Source of the DNA: Gammaproteobacteria bacterium
Lineage (GTDB): Bacteria; Pseudomonadota; Gammaproteobacteria; Steroidobacterales; Steroidobacteraceae
NCBI GenBank assembly: GCA_028870275.1
Contig: JAGWPY010000140.1
Span: 1-46,970 of the forward strand
Direction: 5' to 3'
DNA length: 46,970 bases
Made by a program: the position numbers and the translations under genes. Numbering within the stretch: position 1 is the stretch's first letter; each line of letters begins with the position of its first letter. Under the pieces are notes generated by a model, which was not told where the DNA came from, ran no database searches, and saw only the letters and a program-made list of their open reading frames with translations. Shown here one piece after another: positions 528-11,977 of the stretch.

Positions 528-1694
528 TCAGTGCGAGCCGCGCAGATTGCGGCGGATCACCGCATCGGCGAGCGCATCGGCCCGGGCGAGATCGGTCGAG
601 TACACGTCGGTCACGCCGGCGTAGCGGTCGGTGACGTCGGGGGCGAGCACCGCACCGCTGCGATCGCGCGTATCGACCGTCACGGTCGCCGACAAGCCGA
701 CGCGCAGCGGATGCGCCGCGAGGTCGCGGGGGTCGATCGCGACCCGGACCGGCACACGCTGCACGACCTTGATCCAGTTGCCGGAGGCGTTCTGCGGCGG
801 CAGGAGGGCGAACGCCGCGCCGGTCCCTGCCGACATGCCGATGACCCGTCCGTGGAACACGATCGATCCGCCGTAGAGGTCGCTGACGATGCTCGCCGGC
901 TGGCCGATCCGCAGGTCGCGCAGCTGCACTTCCTTGAAGTTCGCGTCCACCCAGAGCGCATCGAGCGGAATCACGGTCATCAGCGCCTCGCCCGGCTGCA
1001 CGTGCTGGCCGAGCTGCACGCTGCGTTCGGCGACGTAACCGGTCACGGGAGCGACCACCCGGTCGCGCTGCGCGTCGATCCAGGCCTCGCGGTATGCCGC
1101 CTTGGCCTCGAGAACGGCCGGATTGTGCGCGACGTCGGTACCATCGACCAGGGCATGCGCCGCGCGCGCCTGCCGTTCGGCCTGGGCGAGCGCGTCGGCG
1201 GCGATGCGCACCGCATCGCTCGCGTGACGCAGTTCCTCCGGCGCGATCGCCTCGTCGGCGAGCAGCGGCCGGCGGCGCGCGAGATCGGCTTGCGCGCGGG
1301 ACAGCTCGAGTCGGCGAGCCGCGACCACCGCGTCGTACTGATCGGCCATGGCCCGTTCCTGGCGCACCTCGCGAACCGAGCGCGCAAGCGCGCTCGCTGC
1401 GCGACTGAGCTTGGTCTCGGCGTCGACCGGATCGAGTCGCGCGAGCACCTGTCCGGCCTTCACGAGCTGGGTGTCGTCGGCCAGCACCGCGACCACGGTG
1501 CCGGCGACGCGCGCCGAGATCACCACCTTGTTGCCGTTCACGTAGGCGTCGTCGGTGTCCTCGCGCTTCGACAGCACGAGCACCCAGTAAAGGCCCCAGA
1601 GCAGGCCGACGAGCAGGAAGACCAGGACGATCGCGACGAGAATCCTGCGACGGCTGCCGCTCGCGGCCGCTGGCGCTTCGGTATTGGCGTTCAT
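528..1694 (-). CDS. emrA: EmrA-like HlyD-family membrane fusion protein
   Basis: This is a periplasmic adaptor that links an MFS-type inner-membrane drug exporter to an outer-membrane factor. It has 388 residues, the usual EmrA length. A short cytoplasmic N-terminus is followed by one membrane anchor at about residues 17-38. Next come the EmrA-type motif EDTDDAYVNGNKVVISARV, the first half-lipoyl motif, a long alpha-hairpin (about 90-200), the second lipoyl half and the hallmark FALLPPQNASGNWIKVVQR. The ATG overlaps the stop of the upstream OMF gene by four bases (ATGA), which suggests translational coupling in a marR-OMF-emrA operon. No EmrB-type pump follows it; the only such pump in the window is at 9781-11334 in the divergent operon. 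Assignment to the EmrA subfamily is firm; the transported drug is unknown. Confidence 0.93.
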   Translation of the reverse strand: MNANTEAPAAASGSRRRILVAIVLVFLLVGLLWGLYWVLVLSKREDTDDAYVNGNKVVISARVAGTVVAVLADDTQLVKAGQVLARLDPVDAETKLSRAASALARSVREVRQERAMADQYDAVVAARRLELSRAQADLARRRPLLADEAIAPEELRHASDAVRIAADALAQAERQARAAHALVDGTDVAHNPAVLEAKAAYREAWIDAQRDRVVAPVTGYVAERSVQLGQHVQPGEALMTVIPLDALWVDANFKEVQLRDLRIGQPASIVSDLYGGSIVFHGRVIGMSAGTGAAFALLPPQNASGNWIKVVQRVPVRVAIDPRDLAAHPLRVGLSATVTVDTRDRSGAVLAPDVTDRYAGVTDVYSTDLARADALADAVIRRNLRGSH

Positions 1695-3238
1695 GGTGAA
1701 TGCTGACCGTTGATGGAAGTGGGGACGAGGGCCGCGCTGGCGGCCCGGCTCGCAGCCTCGCCGTAGCCGCCGCCGAGGGCGCGGCGCAAGGCGACGTCGG
1801 CGCTCACCGCGGCGGCGTCGAGCTGAGCGAGGAAATCGCGCTGTGCGAGCAGCGTCTGCTCGGCGGCGATCTCCGGCCGCGCATCGCTCAAGCCGCGGCG
1901 CACCCGCGCGGCAGCGCTGTCGCGCAGGCGTTGCGCGGCATCGACCGCCCGGCGGCGTTCGCGGCGCTCGGCCGCCACCCAGTCGAGCGTCGCGGCCTGG
2001 GTGGCGACGTCGCGGGCCGCACCGACGACCGTGGCATCGTAGCCGGCCACGGCGGCGCGCAGCCGCGCGCGCGAGGCCCCGAAGCGGGCGCGCAGCAGAC
2101 CGGAGTCGAAGATCGGCAGATCGAGTGCGACTCCCGCCTGCGGCACTCGGCTCCCGTACTCGAGCAGCTTGCCGAGGTCGATGCTCGAGAGCCCGGCGAG
2201 GGCATCGACGCTGATGTCCGGGTAGAAGGCGGCGCGCGCGGCGGCCGCATCCTGGCGGGCGGCCTCGACCCGCCAGCGGCTCGCGGCGACGTCGGGCCGG
2301 CGCGCGAGCAGCGCGACGCGCACATCGGCGGGAACCTTGCCGCGGATCACCGGCAGCGCCCTCGGCACGAGCGGCGGGAGCTTCGAGACCGGACGGCCGA
2401 CCAGTGCCGCGAGCGCCACCACGCGCAGTCGCGCCGAACCGCTGAGCGCCGCGATCGTCGCCCGCGAGGTGGCGACCTGCAGATCGGCGCGGCGCACGCT
2501 CTCGCCGCTGTCGAGTCCGGCGCGCACCCGCGCCGCCGCGATCCGCCGGTCGCGCCGCGCCGCGTCGAGTTCTTCGCGCGCGATGGCGAGGCGCTGTTGA
2601 TCGGCCTGCCAGCCGAAATAGGCCTCAGCGATACCCTGTTCGAGCGTGAGCGCGGCGTCGGCACGCTCCGCGGCCGCCACCCGGGCCTCGTCGGCCGCCG
2701 CGGCCACGGCCGCCCGTTCGCGGCCCCACCAGTCGAACGTGTACGAGGCGCGCAGCCCGAGGTCCGCCTGGTTGTACCAGTTGAAACCGAGCAGACGCGG
2801 CGGAAACAGTCCGTTGTCGCTCAGACGCTGGCGGTGCGCCGATCCCTGCAGATCGACGCGGGCGCCGGCCGCCGCGCCGGCGACGCGCACCGCGGCCCTG
2901 GCGCTCTCGAATCGGCGCCTCGCACCGGCGAGCGACGGGGAACCCGCGAGCCCCTCGCCGACCAGCCGGTCGAGCGTCGGATCACGATAGACCCGCCACC
3001 AACTCCGCTCCGGCCAGATGCCGCCGGGCGCGGGCGGCGCATCGATCGGCGCCTCGGCGAGCGGCGTCGCCCGCGGCAGTTTCGCCGGCAGACCGGCACA
3101 GGCAACGAGCAGTGCCGTGGCCGCGCCGAGCGCCACCAGGCGCGCGTTCAACAGATGCCGCACGACGCCAGGGCGCAGCGCCCCGCCACCGAGCCGCGCG
3201 ACGCCGCCGCGCTGCGGATTTCCGACCGTGAGTCTCAT
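1691..3238 (-). CDS. NodT-family outer-membrane efflux lipoprotein
   Basis: This outer-membrane factor has 515 residues, typical for the NodT family. It starts with a long basic N-terminus, then a hydrophobic stretch ending in the lipobox LVAC|AG, so it is probably lipid-modified. Two OMF repeats follow, with landmarks PERSWWRVYRDPTLDRLV, RRPDVAASRWRVEAA and ADVALRRALGGGY at the end. Its ATG overlaps the stop of the marR-type gene (ATGA), and its own stop overlaps the emrA-like start, so all three are probably one transcript. It is the natural outer-membrane partner of the EmrA-like protein. The start is supported by the overlap, but the 30 or so residues before the hydrophobic core are longer than usual for a signal peptide, so a later start is possible. 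Confidence 0.9.
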   Translation of the reverse strand: MRLTVGNPQRGGVARLGGGALRPGVVRHLLNARLVALGAATALLVACAGLPAKLPRATPLAEAPIDAPPAPGGIWPERSWWRVYRDPTLDRLVGEGLAGSPSLAGARRRFESARAAVRVAGAAAGARVDLQGSAHRQRLSDNGLFPPRLLGFNWYNQADLGLRASYTFDWWGRERAAVAAAADEARVAAAERADAALTLEQGIAEAYFGWQADQQRLAIAREELDAARRDRRIAAARVRAGLDSGESVRRADLQVATSRATIAALSGSARLRVVALAALVGRPVSKLPPLVPRALPVIRGKVPADVRVALLARRPDVAASRWRVEAARQDAAAARAAFYPDISVDALAGLSSIDLGKLLEYGSRVPQAGVALDLPIFDSGLLRARFGASRARLRAAVAGYDATVVGAARDVATQAATLDWVAAERRERRRAVDAAQRLRDSAAARVRRGLSDARPEIAAEQTLLAQRDFLAQLDAAAVSADVALRRALGGGYGEAASRAASAALVPTSINGQHSP

Positions 3239-3762
3239 TCGACCTCGCTCGGCGCGCTTGGCGCCAGCACATCATCGAAGCGCACCGCGAGGCGCTTCAG
3301 CAGCTCGATCAGCTCGCGCCGCTCCTCGCTCGAGTGCGCGCCGAAGAGCGAACGCAGGTGATCGAAGGTCGGCGGCAGGACGCTGCGCACCAGTTCCTCG
3401 CCCCGTTCTGTGATCTTCAACACCATCCGGCGGCGGTCGGATTCGCAGGCTTCGCGCGTGATGAGCTCGAGGCGCACCAGGGCATCGCTGATCCGCGACA
3501 TGTTCGCCGGGCTCTGCGAGGCGCGCTGGCACAGATCGGTCGGATGCGCGCTGCCTGCGGGCTGGGAGAACAAGGCCGCGAGCACGCGGAACTCACCCTC
3601 GCCGAGGCCGTAGGGGCGTGTGTGCGCCTCGAGCATCGAATCGAATTCATGCGCGAGCAACAAGACCAGGCGCAGGATCAGCACCTCGTCGAGCGGCAGA
3701 TCGGGCAATCGGGCGCGCATGCGCTCGAGACTGGCCTGGATCGATTCGATTTTTCTCTGCAC
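3235..3762 (-). CDS. MarR-family transcriptional regulator (EmrR/MprA-like)
   Basis: This 175-residue protein is a winged-helix regulator of the MarR family, which commonly represses drug-efflux operons and is released by phenolic or hydrophobic ligands. The dimerisation helices occupy the N-terminal third. The recognition region shows QSPANMSRISDALVRLELI, followed by the wing ACESDRRRMVLKITERG, with the D-R-R pattern characteristic of the family. It is the first gene of the leftward marR-OMF-emrA operon, a layout like emrRAB of enterics but with an OMF gene inserted. The 156-bp spacer to the divergent efflux operon holds a perfect palindrome that is the best candidate for its operator. Family and fold are certain; the regulatory role is inferred from position. 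Confidence 0.92.
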   Translation of the reverse strand: MQRKIESIQASLERMRARLPDLPLDEVLILRLVLLLAHEFDSMLEAHTRPYGLGEGEFRVLAALFSQPAGSAHPTDLCQRASQSPANMSRISDALVRLELITREACESDRRRMVLKITERGEELVRSVLPPTFDHLRSLFGAHSSEERRELIELLKRLAVRFDDVLAPSAPSEVE

Positions 3763-3827
3763 AGAGTTGACTTCGGGGTGAGGCCGGCCGGGCGAACTTT
3801 AGGAACTAATAATATGACGACTAATGG

Positions 3828-3856
3828 TTCACAAATGAATATTCTACGCGTAGAAT
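3828..3856 (+). promoter_or_regulatory. Predicted sigma70 promoter of the OMF-RND-MFS operon
   Basis: TTCACA (3828-3833) matches the -35 consensus at five of six positions. After exactly 17 bases comes TAGAAT (3851-3856), which matches the -10 consensus at five of six. The predicted transcription start is near 3863, giving a leader of about 55 nt before the ATG at 3919. The spacer and -10 lie within the 24-bp palindrome described next. Confidence 0.65.
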
Positions 3857-3860
3857 ATTC
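3837..3860. promoter_or_regulatory. Perfect 24-bp palindrome, candidate MarR operator
   Basis: The half-site GAATATTCTACG is followed directly by its exact reverse complement, so the 24 bases form a perfect palindrome. It covers the -10 of the rightward promoter. Because of the symmetry it also supplies a TAGAAT (3846 to 3841) for the leftward direction, with TTGCGT (3869 to 3864) 17 bases upstream of it. A dimeric regulator bound here would block both promoters. The adjacent marR gene makes it the obvious binder, although this is inferred, not shown. Confidence 0.7.
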
Positions 3861-3869
3861 TGTACGCAA
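3841..3869 (-). promoter_or_regulatory. Possible promoter of the marR-OMF-emrA operon
   Basis: On the minus strand TTGCGT (3869-3864), a 17-base spacer and TAGAAT (3846-3841) form a promoter-like pair. The -35 keeps only the TTG core of the consensus, while the -10 is good. The predicted start is about 70 nt before the marR ATG. It overlaps the rightward promoter and the palindrome. Confidence 0.45.
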
Positions 3870-3918
3870 ATAAGCAGCCATCATAGGCTCACGGGAAACC
3901 ACACCGCGGGTACAGGTC

Positions 3919-5463
3919 ATGCGGATCGAGAATCCAATCCATCGTGTTCGCCATCCCGCCCGTTCATCCTCGATGCGGGCCGGGTTGCTGGCCACTTCCG
4001 GCCTGCTCTGCTTCGCGCTCGCCAGTTGCGCGGTCGGTCCCAACTACCATGAGCCGTCCGCACCGCGGACCGACTCCTTTGTACACGGACACCTGCCGGA
4101 TTCGACCGCTTCGGCGCCGGTCGCCGGCGGCGAGGCCCAGCACTTCGAGGCTGGGCGCGACCTTCCCGGAGACTGGTGGACCCTGTTCCGTTCCGCGGAA
4201 CTCGACGATCTGATCCGCACGGCGCTTGCGCGCAATCCGACGCTCGAGGCGGCGCAGGCGGCGCTGCGCGAGGCGAACGAGAATCTCGCCGCGGCGCGCG
4301 GCAGCTACCTGCCGGCTCTGAGCGGCTCGGCCGGCGCGACCCGGCAGCGGGTCTCGGGAGCCGCGTTCGGCAGTCCGCAATCCTTCATGTACACCTTGAA
4401 CAACGCCTCGGTGAACGTCTCGTACACGCTCGATGCGTTCGGCGGCGTGCGGCGCCAGGTCGAGGCGCTGCGCGCGCAGGCGGAATATCAGCGATTCTCG
4501 CTGGAGGGCGCCTACCTCACGCTCACCGCCAACATCGTCACCGCGGCGATCGCCGAGGGGTCCCTGCACGCCCAGATCGAGGCGACCCGGAAGATCGCCG
4601 CCGCGCAGCGCGAAGAACTCGTGATCCTGCGTCATCGGGTCGCCGACGGCGCCGCCACACGCGCCGACCTCCTGCAGCAGCAGGCCCTGCTCGCGGCCAC
4701 GCTCGCCTCGCTTCCGCCGCTCGATGCGTCGCTCGCGCGCGAACGCAACTTGCTCGCGACGTACACGGGTTCGCTGCCCGCCGACTTCGCGGCGCGCGAC
4801 TTCGACCTCGATCGCCTCGCCCTGCCCGTCGATCTGCCGGTCTCGCTCCCCTCCCGTCTGGTCGAGCAGCGTCCCGATGTGCGCGCCTACGCGGCGCTGC
4901 TGCACTCGGCGACCGCCGAGGTGGGCGTCGCCACCGCGGATCTGCTGCCGAAGCTCACGCTCACCGGCAGCTACGGTGCACAGGCGCCGCGATTCGCCGA
5001 CCTGTTCTCGCCGGCGGCGACCGTGTGGAGTCTCGCCGGCTCCGTCGCGCAACCGCTGTTCGAGGGCGGCCGGTTGCTGCACGCGCGCCGGGCCGCGGTC
5101 GCCGCCGCGCAACAGGCGGCCGCGAACTATCGGGCGACCGTGCTCGACGCCTTCGCCGAGGTTTCCGACGCCCTGCTCGCGCTCGAAGCCGACGCGCGGT
5201 CCGTCGCCGCCGAGGCGAGCGCCGAACGCGCCGCGGCCGACAGCCTGACGCTGGTGCGCGCTCAGTACGCGAGCGGCGCGGTCAACCGCCCGCAGGTGCT
5301 GCTCGCCGAGCAGAGCGAACAATCCGCGGCGATCGCGCTGGTCAAGGCGCGCGCGCAGCGATATGCGGACACCGCCGCCCTCTATCAGGCGCTCGGCGGC
5401 GGCTGGTGGCACCGCGACGACGCCCAGGACCCATCTCAAACCTCCCATAAGGGGCATCTGTGA
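3919..5463 (+). CDS. NodT-family outer-membrane efflux lipoprotein of the RND system
   Basis: This 514-residue outer-membrane factor begins the rightward efflux operon. The hydrophobic signal ends in the lipobox ALASC|AVGPNY, and the AVGPNY motif just after the cysteine is typical of OprM/NodT lipoproteins. Two OMF repeats follow (WWTLFRSAELDDLIRTALA, EQRPDVRAYAALLHSATAEVG), and the end is YQALGGGWW. The start at 3919 has a weak AGG upstream. A later ATG at 3973, residue 19, would give a more normal signal peptide but has no visible ribosome site. The last codons overlap the GTG of the adaptor gene. With the next two genes it makes a complete tripartite RND pump. Confidence 0.92.
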   Translation: MRIENPIHRVRHPARSSSMRAGLLATSGLLCFALASCAVGPNYHEPSAPRTDSFVHGHLPDSTASAPVAGGEAQHFEAGRDLPGDWWTLFRSAELDDLIRTALARNPTLEAAQAALREANENLAAARGSYLPALSGSAGATRQRVSGAAFGSPQSFMYTLNNASVNVSYTLDAFGGVRRQVEALRAQAEYQRFSLEGAYLTLTANIVTAAIAEGSLHAQIEATRKIAAAQREELVILRHRVADGAATRADLLQQQALLAATLASLPPLDASLARERNLLATYTGSLPADFAARDFDLDRLALPVDLPVSLPSRLVEQRPDVRAYAALLHSATAEVGVATADLLPKLTLTGSYGAQAPRFADLFSPAATVWSLAGSVAQPLFEGGRLLHARRAAVAAAQQAAANYRATVLDAFAEVSDALLALEADARSVAAEASAERAAADSLTLVRAQYASGAVNRPQVLLAEQSEQSAAIALVKARAQRYADTAALYQALGGGWWHRDDAQDPSQTSHKGHL

Positions 5464-6650
5464 GCAACATCGGTTCGGAAAGACCGGTCGGCGGCCCGCC
5501 CTCCGTCGCACCCCGGAAAATGGTCAGGCCGATCGCGATCGTCGTGATCGTCGCGGTCGTGATCCTCGGCGGCATCTTCGGCTGGCAGGTCTTCATGGGC
5601 CGGATGATGGGCAAGTTCATGGCAGCCGCGGCGTCCGCGCCGCAGACGGTGTCGACCTACGTGGCACGCACGCTGTCCTGGCAGAGCGAGGCTCGCGCCG
5701 TCGGCAACGTACGCGCGCTTCACGGGGCGGACCTCGCCGCACAGATCGCCGGCGTGGTCGATGCGATCGACTTCAAATCCGGCGAGCGGGTGCGGGCGGG
5801 AGCCACCCTGATGCGGTTGCGGCTCAACGACGACCCGGCCAAGCTCGCTCAGCTTCAGGCCCAGGCCAAGCTCGCGGCGCTCACCCTTGCGCGAGACCGC
5901 AAACAGTTCGCGGTGCAGGCGGTGAGCCAGGCGACGCTCGATGCGGACGCCGCAAACCTCGGCGTGGCACGCGCCGCAGTCGCCGCGCAACAGGCACTGA
6001 TCGCCGAGAAGATCGTGCGCGCGCCGTTCTCGGGGCGCCTCGGCATCCGCCTGGTCGATCCCGGACAGTATCTCGCCGCCGGGGCGCCGGTCGTGACGCT
6101 GCAGGCGACCGACCCGATCCTGGTCGACTTCTACCTGCCGCAGCAGACGCTCGCCGCGATCCGCGAGGGGCAACAGGTGACCGCTGCGGTCGACACCTAC
6201 CACGGTGCGCTGTTCGAAGGCCGCATCGTCGCGATCAACTCGAAAGTCGATGCGGCCAGCCGAAATGTGCTGGTGCGCGCCTCGTTCCAGAATCACGACG
6301 GGCGCCTGGTGCCCGGCATGTACGCCAATGTGACGATCCACGAAGGCGCCCCGCGCAGCTACGTGACCGTTCCCGAGACCGCGATCACCTACAACCCCTA
6401 CGGCGCCACGGTATTCGTGGTCACCAAGGCCGGTGTGGACGCCAAGGGCAAGGCGAAGCTGATCGCGAATCAGCGCTTCGTGAAGCTCGGACCCACGCGC
6501 GGCAACCAGGTGGCCGTGCTCGACGGGCTGGCCGCGGGCGAGATCGTGGTGAGCGCCGGACAGATCAAGCTGCACAACGGCAGCCCGGTCGCGGTGGACA
6601 ACTCGGTGGTGCCGAGCGACTCGGCCACCCCGACGCCCCCCAACGAATAG
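5460..6650 (+). CDS. RND efflux periplasmic adaptor (MexE/AcrA-like family)
   Basis: This 396-residue membrane fusion protein bridges the RND pump and the OMF. It has one N-terminal transmembrane segment (about residues 21-42) instead of a cleavable lipoprotein signal. Then come the lipoyl half-motif LAAQIAGVVDAIDFKSGERV, a short alpha-hairpin, the second half VRAPFSGRLGIRLVDPGQYL, a beta-barrel domain and the membrane-proximal domain (LVPGMYANVTIHEG, TVPETAITYNPYG). The hairpin is short, as in adaptors of MexH/VexE-type pumps. It starts with GTG in a GTGA overlap with the OMF stop, so the two are likely translationally coupled. The pump gene follows after 16 bases. Confidence 0.92.
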   Translation: MSNIGSERPVGGPPSVAPRKMVRPIAIVVIVAVVILGGIFGWQVFMGRMMGKFMAAAASAPQTVSTYVARTLSWQSEARAVGNVRALHGADLAAQIAGVVDAIDFKSGERVRAGATLMRLRLNDDPAKLAQLQAQAKLAALTLARDRKQFAVQAVSQATLDADAANLGVARAAVAAQQALIAEKIVRAPFSGRLGIRLVDPGQYLAAGAPVVTLQATDPILVDFYLPQQTLAAIREGQQVTAAVDTYHGALFEGRIVAINSKVDAASRNVLVRASFQNHDGRLVPGMYANVTIHEGAPRSYVTVPETAITYNPYGATVFVVTKAGVDAKGKAKLIANQRFVKLGPTRGNQVAVLDGLAAGEIVVSAGQIKLHNGSPVAVDNSVVPSDSATPTPPNE

Positions 6651-6666: not shown

Positions 6667-9600
6667 GTGAACTTCACCGACATCTTCGTACGCCGCCCCG
6701 TACTCGCGAGCGTCGTCAGTCTCGTGATCCTCGTGCTCGGGCTGCGCAGCTTCGGCTCGCTGCAGGTGCTCGAGTACCCGAAGACCGAGAATGGCGTCGT
6801 CACGATCACGACCGCCTATCCCGGCGCGGATCCCGACTCGATCGCGGGCTTCATCACCACGCCGATCGAGGCGGCCGTCGCCCAGGCCGACGGCATCGAC
6901 TACATGACCTCGTCCAGCCAGAGCGGCGTGAGCACGATCCAGGTCGTGCTGCGCCAGAACTACGACACGTCCAAGGCCGCGGCCGAGATAAACATCAAGG
7001 TCAATTCCGTCCTGAACCAGCTGCCGACCGGGTCGCAGCTGCCCTCGATCACGGTGGCGGTCGGTCAGACCATCGATGCGATGTACATCGGCTTCTCGAG
7101 CAACAAGCTCGACCGCAACCAGATCACCGATTATGTGCAGCGCGTGGTGCAGCCGCAGCTGCAGGCCGTGCCCGGCGTGCAGACCGCGGAGATCCGCGGC
7201 GCGCAGTACTTCGCGCTGCGCGCCTGGCTCGACCCGAAGAAGCTCGCGGCCTACGGCTTGACCGCCAGCGACGTCTCCAGGGCGCTCGCCGCCAACGACT
7301 ACATCTCCGCCGTCGGCGCGACCAAGGGCGAGAACATCCAGATCAACCTCACCTCGACCACCAACCTGCACAGTCTGGACGAATTCCGCAACATGGTGAT
7401 CGAGCAGGTCAACGGCGCGATCGTCCGCCTGAAGGACGTCGCCACGGTCACGCTCGGCGCGGACGACTACGAGTCGCGAATCGCCTTCGACGGCGTGGGC
7501 GGCGTATTCGTCGGCATCCAGATCGCGCCGAGCGCGAACCTCCTGTCGGTGATCGACGGCGTGCGCAAGGCCTTCCCGCAGATCCACGCGCAGCTGCCCG
7601 AGGGTCTGCGCTCGGCGATCGTCTACGACTCGACCGACTACGTGAACGCCTCGATCCACGAGGTCGCCAACACGCTGATCGAGGCGGTGGTGATCGTGAT
7701 CCTGGTGATCTTCGCCTTCCTCGGCTCGCCTCGCTCGGTGGTCATCCCGATCGTGGCGATTCCGTTGTCGATCATCGGCACCTTCGCGATCATGCTCGCG
7801 CTGCACTTCTCGGTGAACCTCCTGACCCTTCTCGCGCTGGTGCTGGCGATCGGCCTGGTCGTGGACGATGCGATCATCGTCGTCGAGAACGTCAACCGAC
7901 ACCTCGCCGAAGGAAAGCCGCCGGTGGCCGCCGCGATGATCGCCGCGCGCGAACTCGGCGCACCGATCATCGCCATGACCGTGGTGCTGCTCGCGGTGTT
8001 CGTGCCGATCGGCTTCCAGGGGGGCCTCACCGGCGCGCTGTTCGTCGAATTCGCCTTCACCCTGGCCGGCACCGTGACCGTCTCGGCGGTGATCGCCCTG
8101 ACGCTCTCGCCGATGATGTGCTCGAAGATGCTGCGCTCCCATCGGGACGACCCCGGGCACTGGGAGGCACGCCTGGTGCACCAGATCGACGAGCGCTTCG
8201 ACCGCCTGCGCGGCTGGTACCAGCGAAAGCTCGAGCGCAGCCTCGCCTACACGCCGGTGACCGGCGTGCTGGTGCTGATCGTTCTCGGCAGCATCTACTG
8301 GCTCGCGAGCCACTCGAAGTCCGAGCTCTCGCCCCAGGAGGACCAGGGGTTCGTGCTGATGCAAGCCACTTCGGCGCCGAACGCGACCCTGCAGACCAAG
8401 CTCGCCTATTTCCACAAGGTCTACGGGATCGCCACCAACCTCACCCATCCCGAGCACGCCTTTCACATCGACGCGCCGGGTATCTCGATCACCGGTCTGA
8501 ACCTCAGGCCCTGGAGCGAGCGCAAGCGCAGCGCCGCCGTGCTGCAGCAGCAGATCCAGCAGGCCATGAACCGTTCCATCGCCGGCCAGCGCGTGGTCGC
8601 ATTCCAACCGCCCTCGCTGCCCGGCGCGTTCGGCCTGCCGCTGCAGTTCGTGGTCAAGACCACCGATCCACCGCTGCGGCTCAATGACGTGTCGCAACGC
8701 CTGCTGCTCGATGCCCGCCGCAGCGGCAAATTCATGTTCCTCGATACCGACCTCAAGTACGACCTGCCGCAGTCGGTGATCGAGATCGACCGCGACAAGG
8801 CCGCGCAGCTCGGCCTGTCGATGAGCCAGATCGGCTCGGCCCTGACCAGCATGCTCGGCGGCGGCTACGTGAACTACTTCAGCATGGACACGCGCTCCTA
8901 CAAGGTCATCCCGCAGGTCCAGCGGCTCTCCCGGCTGAACGTCTCGCAGCTGCTCGACTACCCGATCGCGACCGTGGGCGGCGTGAGCGTGCCGCTGTCG
9001 ACGGTCGCCACGATCCGCACCGAGACCGTGCCGGAGACGCTGAATCACTTCCAGCAACAGAACTCGGCGACCATCTCCGGCGTGATGGCCCCCGGCGTGT
9101 CGCTGTCGGACGCCATCACCTATCTGCGCGGCCTCGCGGCGCGCGACCTTCCCGCGGGCTATTCGGTCGACTATGCCGGCCAGGCGCGCCAGTTCGTGCA
9201 GGAATCGAGCGGCATGCTGCTCACCTTCGGGTTCGCGATCATCATCGTGTTCCTGTCGCTCGCCGCGCTGTTCGAGAGCTTCCGCGATCCGCTCGTGATC
9301 CTCATCTCGGTGCCCCTGTCGATCGCCGGCGCGCTGGTGTTCATCGCGCTCGGAATCGGCGGCGCCTCGCTGAACATCTACACCGAGGTGGGCCTCGTGA
9401 CCCTGATGGGCCTGATCAGCAAACACGGCATCCTGATCGTCGAGGTCGCCAACCGCGAACAGGAGCTCGGCAAATCGAAGTACGACGCGGTCGTCACCGC
9501 GGCCTGCACCCGGCTGCGTCCGATTCTGATGACCACCGCGGCGATGGTGCTCGGCGTGCTGCCGCTCGTGTTCGCGAGCGGCGCCGGCGCGGGCTCGCGC

Positions 9601-9747
9601 TTCGCGATCGGCCTGGTGATCTCCACCGGCCTCGCCATCGGCACGCTGTTCACGCTGTTCGTGGTGCCCGGCGTGTACCTGCTGATCGGCGCCGACCGGT
9701 TTCGTCTCGCCGGGGCGGCCGCCGCGGGCGATTCGGCCGCCGGCTGA
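6667..9747 (+). CDS. RND multidrug efflux permease (HAE1 family)
   Basis: This inner-membrane proton/drug antiporter has 1026 residues, the normal size for AcrB-type pumps. It opens with NFTDIFVRRPVLASVVSLVI, the family N-terminus and first transmembrane helix. Two large periplasmic loops and two six-helix bundles follow. The proton-relay aspartates are present as GLVVDDAIIVVENV (D400 and D401, equivalent to D407/D408 of AcrB). The second half has the matching helix region LVTLMGLISKHGILIVEVAN. The start codon is GTG, 16 bases after the adaptor stop. The loop sequences look closer to the MexK/MexQ-type branch than to AcrB, but this is only by eye and substrates cannot be assigned. Confidence 0.95.
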   Translation: MNFTDIFVRRPVLASVVSLVILVLGLRSFGSLQVLEYPKTENGVVTITTAYPGADPDSIAGFITTPIEAAVAQADGIDYMTSSSQSGVSTIQVVLRQNYDTSKAAAEINIKVNSVLNQLPTGSQLPSITVAVGQTIDAMYIGFSSNKLDRNQITDYVQRVVQPQLQAVPGVQTAEIRGAQYFALRAWLDPKKLAAYGLTASDVSRALAANDYISAVGATKGENIQINLTSTTNLHSLDEFRNMVIEQVNGAIVRLKDVATVTLGADDYESRIAFDGVGGVFVGIQIAPSANLLSVIDGVRKAFPQIHAQLPEGLRSAIVYDSTDYVNASIHEVANTLIEAVVIVILVIFAFLGSPRSVVIPIVAIPLSIIGTFAIMLALHFSVNLLTLLALVLAIGLVVDDAIIVVENVNRHLAEGKPPVAAAMIAARELGAPIIAMTVVLLAVFVPIGFQGGLTGALFVEFAFTLAGTVTVSAVIALTLSPMMCSKMLRSHRDDPGHWEARLVHQIDERFDRLRGWYQRKLERSLAYTPVTGVLVLIVLGSIYWLASHSKSELSPQEDQGFVLMQATSAPNATLQTKLAYFHKVYGIATNLTHPEHAFHIDAPGISITGLNLRPWSERKRSAAVLQQQIQQAMNRSIAGQRVVAFQPPSLPGAFGLPLQFVVKTTDPPLRLNDVSQRLLLDARRSGKFMFLDTDLKYDLPQSVIEIDRDKAAQLGLSMSQIGSALTSMLGGGYVNYFSMDTRSYKVIPQVQRLSRLNVSQLLDYPIATVGGVSVPLSTVATIRTETVPETLNHFQQQNSATISGVMAPGVSLSDAITYLRGLAARDLPAGYSVDYAGQARQFVQESSGMLLTFGFAIIIVFLSLAALFESFRDPLVILISVPLSIAGALVFIALGIGGASLNIYTEVGLVTLMGLISKHGILIVEVANREQELGKSKYDAVVTAACTRLRPILMTTAAMVLGVLPLVFASGAGAGSRFAIGLVISTGLAIGTLFTLFVVPGVYLLIGADRFRLAGAAAAGDSAAG

Positions 9748-9780: not shown

Positions 9781-11334
9781 ATGAGCGAGCCCAGGGAGCT
9801 GCCGCCGCTCCAGGGGATGATGCGCCTGTTCGGCGCATTCGCCCTGGCGCTCGCCACGTTCATGAACGTGCTCGACACGTCGATCGCCAATGTGTCGCTG
9901 TCGGCCATCGGCGGCGACCTCGGCGCCGCCGCCTCGCAGCTCACCTGGGTGATCACCTCGTTCGCGGTCGCCAACGCGATCGCCGTGCCGCTGACCGGCT
10001 GGCTCGCCCAGCGCTTCGGCGCGGTCCGCCTGTTCACCGCCTCGATCCTGCTGTTCACGGCGTTCTCGGTGCTGTGCGGCCTGGCCAATTCGCTGCAGAT
10101 GCTGATCTTCTTCCGCGTATTGCAGGGCGCGGCCGCGGGTCCGATGATTCCGTTGTCCCAGGCGCTGCTCCTGTCGACCTTTCCGCGACAGAAGGCGGGC
10201 ACGGCGCTCGCGGTGTGGGCGATGACCACGCTGGTGGCGCCGGTGATGGGGCCGATGCTCGGCGGCTGGATCACCGACAACATCTCCTGGCCCTGGATCT
10301 TCTACATCAACCTGCCCGTCGGTCTGTTCGCCGCGGTGGTCACCTGGGACATCTATCGCGACCGCGAGACGCCGCGGCAGCGCCTGCCGATCGACGCGGT
10401 CGGACTCGGCCTGCTCATGCTCTGGGTCGGCTCCCTGCAGATCCTGCTCGACAAGGGCGAGGAGCTCGATTGGTTCGCATCGCCGGTGATCGTCGCGCTG
10501 GCGGTGACCGCGGCGCTCGGCTTCTGCGTGTTCCTCGCCTGGGAACTCGTCGACAACCCCCACCCGGTGGTGGACCTGCGCCTGTTCCGGGGTCGCAATT
10601 TCTGGAGCGGCACGCTCGCCTTCTCGCTCGGCTACGCGGTGTTCTTCGGCAATGTCGTGCTGCTGCCGCTCTGGCTGCAGGAGTACATGAACTACACGGC
10701 CACCTGGGCCGGACTTCTGACCGCGCCGGTCGGAATCCTGGCGCTGCTGCTCTCCCCCTACGTCGGCCGGCGCGTCGGTCGCACCGACTCGCGGATCCTC
10801 GCCACGATCGCCTTCGCGATCTTCGGTGTCGCGCTCTATCTGCGCACCTTCTACGATACCGACGCGAATTTCGGCTTCCTGGTCGTGCCAATCATCGTCC
10901 AGGGCGCGGCGATGGCCTTCTTCTTCGTGCCTCTCGTCAATCTGATCCTCGCCGGCCTGCCACCGTCGAAGATCCCGGGCGCCTCCGGTCTCGCCAATTT
11001 CGCGCGCATCACCGCGGGGAGCTTCGGCACGTCGCTCGCGATCACGCTCTGGGACGACCGCGCGAAGCTCCATCATGCACGGCTGGTCGAATCGATCAGC
11101 GCCGCCCACGGCAGCGCTCGTGCCTATTTCGGCGGCTTGCGCGCGGCCGGACTCGGCTCGCGCCAGGCCGCCTCGGTCATCGATCACGTGGTCGACGCAC
11201 AGGCGCGGCTCCTGGCCGCGGACGACGTGTTCTGGCTCTCGGCCATGCTGTTCTTCGCGATGATCGCCGTGGTCTGGCTCGCGCACCGCTCCCAGCCCGG
11301 TCATTCGAGCGATTCGGCATCGGCCGCGCATTGA
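9781..11334 (+). CDS. emrB: DHA2-family MFS multidrug exporter (EmrB/QacA type)
   Basis: This 517-residue protein is a 14-helix major facilitator drug:proton antiporter. Helix 1 carries the DHA2 signature LDTSIANVSLSAIGGDLG. This is followed by WVITSFAVANAIAVPLTGWL, the loop motif RFGAVRLF, and the helix-5 antiporter motif AVWAMTTLVAPVMGPMLGGW. EmrB-type pumps work with an EmrA adaptor. No adaptor of that type is in its own operon, but one is encoded at 528-1694 in the divergent operon, so the two probably pair. It starts 33 bases after the RND pump, and no promoter is evident in between. No clear terminator follows; the next 250 bases are AT-rich and non-coding. Confidence 0.93.
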   Translation: MSEPRELPPLQGMMRLFGAFALALATFMNVLDTSIANVSLSAIGGDLGAAASQLTWVITSFAVANAIAVPLTGWLAQRFGAVRLFTASILLFTAFSVLCGLANSLQMLIFFRVLQGAAAGPMIPLSQALLLSTFPRQKAGTALAVWAMTTLVAPVMGPMLGGWITDNISWPWIFYINLPVGLFAAVVTWDIYRDRETPRQRLPIDAVGLGLLMLWVGSLQILLDKGEELDWFASPVIVALAVTAALGFCVFLAWELVDNPHPVVDLRLFRGRNFWSGTLAFSLGYAVFFGNVVLLPLWLQEYMNYTATWAGLLTAPVGILALLLSPYVGRRVGRTDSRILATIAFAIFGVALYLRTFYDTDANFGFLVVPIIVQGAAMAFFFVPLVNLILAGLPPSKIPGASGLANFARITAGSFGTSLAITLWDDRAKLHHARLVESISAAHGSARAYFGGLRAAGLGSRQAASVIDHVVDAQARLLAADDVFWLSAMLFFAMIAVVWLAHRSQPGHSSDSASAAH

Positions 11335-11461: not shown

Positions 11462-11489
11462 TTGCGTTTTGTCAATTGTCTTGTATATT
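11462..11489 (+). promoter_or_regulatory. Possible promoter of the small unknown gene
   Basis: TTGCGT (11462-11467), a 16-base spacer and TATATT (11484-11489, five of six with consensus) form a plausible sigma70 promoter. The AT-rich block lies upstream, where an UP element would act. The predicted transcript would start near 11495 and carry a leader of about 90 nt that includes the two symmetric elements. Confidence 0.4.
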
Positions 11490-11524
11490 CCCGTCATAGC
11501 ATCTTGATTTATCACGGCTCCGCA

Positions 11525-11579
11525 GCGGATATCCGCCTCGAAACCACATTAACTAGTTGCGGTTTCGAGACAAAGAGGC
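11525..11579 (+). promoter_or_regulatory. Palindrome and stem-loop in the leader
   Basis: The leader contains GCGGATATCCGC (11525-11536), a perfect 12-bp palindrome. It is followed at once by a 9-bp stem, CTCGAAACC (11537-11545) with GGTTTCGAG (11561-11569), whose 15-base loop contains the palindrome AACTAGTT. GCCTC (11535-11539) is also complementary to GAGGC (11575-11579), which includes the ribosome-binding AAGAGG, so an alternative fold could hide the ribosome site. This is read from the sequence; no regulatory role is known. Confidence 0.45.
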
Positions 11580-11584
11580 TTTAC

Positions 11585-11977
11585 ATGATCAACGCCTGGG
11601 AACATTTTCACCACGCGACCCTCGAGCTCGTTCGCTCGACGCCCATCAAGCAACGCCTGATCAGCGCCTACCGGCGCCATCTCGCCGACGTGAGCGAGGA
11701 CCAACTCCCCGGAGAGATCCGTGAGCCCTTCTCGCAGGTGCGGCGCAGCCTCTGCGGCGTTCAGCCGCTGCGCGGCGAGGACGCGGTCGCCGCCTCGGTG
11801 CGCAAGATGTCGAATCAGGATGCCGACGAATGCGCGGCCATGATCGTCGAGATCTTCGGGCGCATCAGCCGCGTGCAGAGCGCCGCGGCGCGCGTGGTCA
11901 ACGCGCCGCTGAAGCTGCACAGCGTCAGCGATGACAGCGGCGAGTTCGCCGTGCCCGCCTGGATCGCCAACAACTGA
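11585..11977 (+). CDS. Small conserved-looking protein of unknown function
   Basis: I do not recognise a characterised family. The ATG at 11585 is preferred over the track's start at 11462 because AAGAGG lies 6 bases before it and because the upstream bases look like promoter and leader. The 130-residue product starts MINAWEHFHHATLELV and is mainly helical, soluble and charged. It has no signal peptide or membrane segment. The stretch KMSNQDADECAAMIVEIFGR looks like an amphipathic helix. Codon use and GC content match the rest of the window, so the AT-rich upstream block is regulatory rather than a sign of a foreign gene. It converges on the TIR-like gene. Confidence 0.75.
   Translation: MINAWEHFHHATLELVRSTPIKQRLISAYRRHLADVSEDQLPGEIREPFSQVRRSLCGVQPLRGEDAVAASVRKMSNQDADECAAMIVEIFGRISRVQSAAARVVNAPLKLHSVSDDSGEFAVPAWIANN

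Follow-up and report, generated by a model that had tools for sequence, protein, structure and literature searches.

A perfect 24-bp palindrome between divergent efflux operons as a probable operator of an EmrR-like MarR regulator

The window (the whole stretch of DNA analysed, 46,970 nucleotides) contains a perfect 24-bp palindrome, GAATATTCTACGCGTAGAATATTC, at 3837–3860 in the intergenic region between marR and the outer-membrane factor (OMF) gene of a divergent efflux operon. The EmrR-like MarR protein encoded alongside probably has its only high-affinity operator in this palindrome, and its dimer would repress both divergent operons along with its own gene. For binding, repression and induction we infer the following course. 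The MarR dimer would bind 3837–3860 by two-fold symmetry, covering the two -10 boxes and the greater part of each spacer. Once bound, it would keep RNA polymerase off the leftward marR-OMF-emrA operon, which amounts to autoregulation, and off the rightward OMF-MFP-RND-MFS operon. A ligand, probably a pump substrate, would free the dimer, and both directions would open at once. If this is right, one site sets the levels of the RND pump, the EmrA-type pump and the repressor jointly, and loss of the repressor is expected to raise both pumps together.

Palindrome, promoters and operons

The two arms of the palindrome (3837–3848 and 3849–3860) are 12 nt each and 100% complementary with no gap between them, and the first pair beyond the arms, T3836/T3861, is a mismatch. 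The perfect 24-bp palindrome of the original prediction is thus confirmed. Dinucleotide shuffles of the intergenic region (3763–3918) produced a 24-bp palindrome in 0 of 5000 cases, the longest being 18 bp, and shuffles of the whole 47-kb window gave one of at least 24 bp in 5 of 200. A chance origin is untenable because the palindrome is conserved in relatives.

The palindrome covers the spacer and the -10 box of a promoter in each direction. The rightward promoter, with TTCACA (3828–3833) and TAGAAT (3851–3856) separated by 17 bp, had been proposed before and is borne out: it scores 10 of 12 and is the sole promoter-like match in 3600–4100, where 0.2 are expected in shuffles. The leftward promoter, TTGCGT (3869–3864) 17 bp from TAGAAT (3846–3841), is present exactly as predicted, but its -35 box is weak; a standard promoter scan misses it because this box has only 3 of 6 consensus matches in the window. 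TTGC of this -35 box and TAGAAT are kept at their positions in four relatives (G004, G005, G022 and G012). The two -10 boxes share no bases and lie 4 bp apart, and about 29 bp separate the predicted starts. With the promoters overlapping on 42 bp, there would be room for a single polymerase at a time.

Table 1. Features around the palindrome, in window positions
Feature	Position	Strand	Basis or remark
Palindrome GAATATTCTACGCGTAGAATATTC, proposed MarR (EmrR-like) operator	3837–3860		Symmetry, conservation in relatives, single genome site
Rightward promoter TTCACA-17-TAGAAT (predicted)	3828–3856	+	Predicted start near 3863; TTCACA and TAGAAT also in G004
Leftward promoter TTGCGT-17-TAGAAT (predicted)	3841–3869	-	Predicted start near 3834; TTGC and TAGAAT kept in relatives
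marR, EmrR/MprA-like MarR-family regulator, 175 aa, GTG start; leads leftward operon	3235–3762	-	Pfam MarR_2 1.1e-8; NF008122 MprA 3.3e-22, 79 bits
Outer-membrane efflux factor (NodT family), leftward operon	1691–3238	-	TIGR01845 292 bits, above cut-off
EmrA-type periplasmic adaptor, leftward operon	528–1694	-	NF011715 EmrA 2e-132, below cut-off
Outer-membrane efflux factor (NodT family), leads rightward operon	3919–5463	+	TIGR01845 400 bits, above cut-off
RND-type periplasmic adaptor, rightward operon	5460–6650	+	TIGR01730 238 bits, above cut-off
RND efflux permease, rightward operon	6667–9747	+	PF00873 8.6e-254
EmrB-type DHA2 MFS permease, last in rightward operon	9781–11334	+	TIGR00711 489 bits, above cut-off

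The divergent efflux operons beside the MarR gene are as originally claimed (Table 1). The regulator carries a winged-helix MarR domain (PF12802, 35.5 bits with a cut-off of 27; PF01047, 34.6 bits with a cut-off of 24.6) and is 29% identical to E. coli EmrR. It falls below the cut-off of the EmrR/MprA equivalog model NF008122 (79 versus 157 bits), yet the alignment runs end to end, from 3 to 165. Its gene stands at the head of an emrA(B)-type operon, marR-OMF-emrA, and emrB comes next in G004 and in most relatives with sequence there.

In the window, emrA is the last gene of the left operon, and its stop lies 4 bp from that of a convergent outer-membrane gene fragment (23–523). In G004 (locus L032), the closest relative with sequence there, emrB lies between emrA and that outer-membrane gene. 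No close copy of the left-operon emrB was found elsewhere in the own assembly. Loss of the left emrB seems to be repeated, since emrB was likewise not found after emrA in G010 (L037), G002 (L038) and G003 (L048), where other genes stand instead. The EmrA of the window and the remaining EmrB-type permease (9781–11334) flank the proposed shared operator on opposite sides. Downstream of the rightward operon, 11462–11977 encodes a small protein (LVRSTPIKQR...QPLRGEDxVxASVRKMSNQxADECA) that also lies near the marR of G016, at L043 8945–9334.

Conservation beside marR and number of sites

Sixty genomes, the own one (G000) included, were searched for relatives of the locus. The search gave marR orthologues with 48–75% identity in 19 further genomes of the genus; two other genera of the same family also yielded orthologues (47 and 37%). 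Nearly all have an outer-membrane gene and emrA behind them, and usually emrB too. An OMF-MFP-RND operon lies opposite marR in most of the genus. The presumed recognition helix of the regulator, SPANMSRISDALV, is nearly invariant among the orthologues.

A near-identical palindrome stands upstream of marR in G004, G005 and G022, with a weaker form in G012. The marR proteins of these four and of G000 form one clade (support 98/96), within which the palindrome core is conserved better than any other part of the intergenic region. Distant relatives have an imperfect site, rGATATTCAyTTGsTAAAATATAy, in which TAAAAT is the marR-ward -10 box; the symmetric part common to clade and distant sites is about ATATTy-n8-rAATAT. 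Throughout the marR orthologues the related site keeps a near-constant place, its centre lying 42–86 bp ahead of the aligned start of marR.

A weight matrix was trained on distant relatives only, with the window's whole clade left out. When the 200 bp before marR are scored with this matrix, the palindrome ranks first (14.7 bits), a score reached in 0 of 300 shuffles. For G024 and G030, which belong to other genera and were never in the training, the best site is found at the corresponding place, equalled by 0 and 1 of 300 shuffles, respectively. Among the 20 genus orthologues, 15 have a site score matched by at most 2 of 300 shuffles, where leave-one-out scoring removes only in part the circularity of training sites first chosen by eye; a clear motif match in matrix scoring is missing in the five others (G001, G016, G013, G017 and G006).

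The site is retained beside marR when the neighbour is a tetR gene (G010, G018) or an unrelated RND pump (G009, G020), and also in G024, where no divergent efflux gene is seen. Since it persists despite a changed or absent neighbour, the site is tied to marR autoregulation and not to the opposite operon. Between the operator and the marR start, at 3794–3835, lies a conserved TTAG-containing element (GAACnnTTAG; GAATGGTTAGTATGCAAATGAAT in distant relatives), perhaps an additional site, perhaps a piece of the leader. A second operator near this element is not claimed, as the matrix gives only weak scores around it in the window.

Genome-wide counts were obtained by pattern searches. With up to three mismatches allowed, the own genome (2.9 Mb assembled, 86% complete) contains a single copy of the 18-bp core. 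The question of a one-site or a multi-site regulon, raised with the original prediction, is thereby answered as one site in the assembled sequence; a second is possible in the missing part. Across the genus at up to two mismatches the core is confined to G000, G004, G005 and G022, always at this locus, and at one mismatch it occurs in 0 of 368 other genomes sampled from the class, as does the reversed control. A looser half-site pattern gave one extra one-mismatch match and nine matches at two mismatches. The one-mismatch outer half-site match in contig C99 was rejected, lying inside an RND-pump coding sequence.

Alternatively, the palindrome could serve another regulator, either global or unlinked, with MarR acting elsewhere. 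Such a site would fit the length of 24 bp, given that MarR operators usually span 16–20 bp (PMC6018408). Nevertheless, the single site in the genome argues against a global regulator, and the motif accompanies marR through changes of neighbour and in other genera, which makes this alternative highly unlikely.

Symmetry in one clade and control of the RND operon

The site holds a -10 box matching 5 of 6 positions in both directions in the five clade members (G000, G004, G005, G022 and G012). Outside the clade the marR-ward -10 alone is good, the hexamer on the other side having 2–4 of 6 matches. G000 and G004 alone have a good rightward -35; this box matches 3 of 6 in G005, G022 and G012, while the leftward -35 is weak throughout the clade (3–4 of 6). 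The earlier proposal that one dimer shuts down both efflux operons and its own gene is supported, with qualifications: the site behaves as a MarR operator in staying with marR, and both -10 boxes are kept in the clade, but the -35 boxes are a weaker point in both directions.

Symmetry follows a similar gradation. Out of 12 pairs, 12 are symmetric in G000, 10 in G005 and G022, 9 in G004, 7 in G012 and 3–8 in the others. It could be asked whether the symmetry serves nucleic-acid structure, as a cruciform or an RNA hairpin, instead of a protein dimer, for a single strand can fold into a 10-bp stem with a 4-base loop (-5.5 kcal/mol). Any perfect palindrome folds in this way, however, and a cruciform role was rejected. 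Moreover, the distant sites have lost much of the pairing, with their 3–8 symmetric pairs, while sequence and place are kept, and the palindrome, placed on the -10 boxes, precedes the predicted starts. A structural role is thus barely plausible.

In five relatives marR and the RND operon are separated by a tetR gene; TetR-family genes were located there at L037 9828–10511, L039 8240–8920, L040 6983–7705 and L045 12387–13124. A palindrome, TGACACGTGTCG, adjoins tetR in L039 and L040, and TGACA-like remnants are present in some relatives without tetR. A search for orthologues of this tetR at E 1e-15 gave none in the own genome and its clade, and none in several relatives outside the clade.

These observations bear on a narrower reading, in which the palindrome is a MarR operator for autoregulation only and the RND operon is transcribed from another promoter or is mainly under other control. 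In its favour, distant relatives have a poor rightward -10 equivalent beside a good marR-ward one, five relatives place the RND operon behind a tetR of its own, with the TGACACGTGTCG palindrome there in two, and the site is retained in a relative with no divergent efflux gene in view. In the window, however, the sole good rightward promoter lies on the palindrome itself, and the tetR has no orthologue found in the own genome or clade. We consider autoregulation alone unlikely here, and joint control of both operons by the MarR dimer remains the preferred reading.

The clade-specific second -10 box and the absent tetR therefore fit the hypothesis that the RND operon was newly brought under MarR control in this clade. 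A lopsided ancestral marR operator may have turned symmetric, or nearly so, in one clade, gaining a mirror-image -10 box, and the RND operon would have come under MarR without tetR. This history is put forward tentatively, as possible but doubtful. If true, it would be a small and traceable rewiring of efflux control, in which a 24-bp element is both the operator and the core of two promoters. The relatives form a natural series that starts from an imperfect site acting one way, in some cases beside a tetR, and ends in a perfect two-way site; the growth of symmetry and of a second promoter can be followed along it. The presumed wing of the regulator also differs, reading ACESDRRR in the clade and mostly, e.g., LSVHDRRR elsewhere; the contrast between clade and others is confounded with descent and was set aside as an explanation.

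Comparison with known systems

E. coli EmrR (MprA) binds an inverted repeat centred near the emrRAB -10 (PMC6469979). As proposed for the window, a MarR-family autoregulator leads an EmrA-type operon and has its operator on its own -10 (PMC6469979). The E. coli system differs in acting in one direction only, through an imperfect operator of another sequence, whereas the regulator of the window scores below the MprA equivalog cut-off and an outer-membrane gene separates it from emrA. The EmrR site CTGTCGTTACTATATCGGCTG, given in PMC13053672, was also read in E. coli K-12. The palindrome of the window has no resemblance to it, although this criterion is not strict, reported sites varying among species.

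In Chromobacterium violaceum, the MarR-type EmrR directly represses itself and emrCAB, as found by mobility shift (PMC6249546). The kind of regulator and the set of outer-membrane and emrA genes are the same, as they are in the like-named Stenotrophomonas pump. C. violaceum EmrR bound nine tested promoters, however, whereas the palindrome of the window is single in its genome. The left operon of the window moreover lacks emrB, and its site would be common to a divergent RND operon.

One operator regulates both ohr and ohrR in Agrobacterium tumefaciens (PMC5201249), a likewise MarR-family operator for two divergent genes, the regulator included. On sequence grounds the window would belong to this one-operator divergent type, with a single palindrome that covers both -10 boxes. 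OhrR differs in sensing organic peroxides, in having one small target gene and in its operator sequence. EstR in Agrobacterium has two sites, unlike the single site of the window. Similarly, Pseudomonas aeruginosa MexR represses itself and the divergent mexAB-oprM from a common intergenic region (PMC8264304), and is thus, as proposed here, a MarR-family repressor of itself and of a divergent RND efflux operon. MexR uses two sites and not one perfect palindrome, and there is no EmrA operon on its regulator side.

Bidirectional promoters of E. coli, such as that of acrA/acrR, give two divergent mRNAs from one short stretch with one polymerase at once (PMC12825309). They share -10 bases, and their starts are mostly 10, 18 or 23 bp apart (PMC12825309). 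In the window the -10 boxes are unshared, separated by 4 bp, and the predicted starts lie at the wider distance given above; it is therefore not a shared -10 bidirectional promoter as defined for E. coli. Mutual exclusion of polymerase at the two promoters is nonetheless expected. Control through a shared operator is a known kind of regulation, ordinary as such, and the operator proposed here is well kept and evolutionarily informative.
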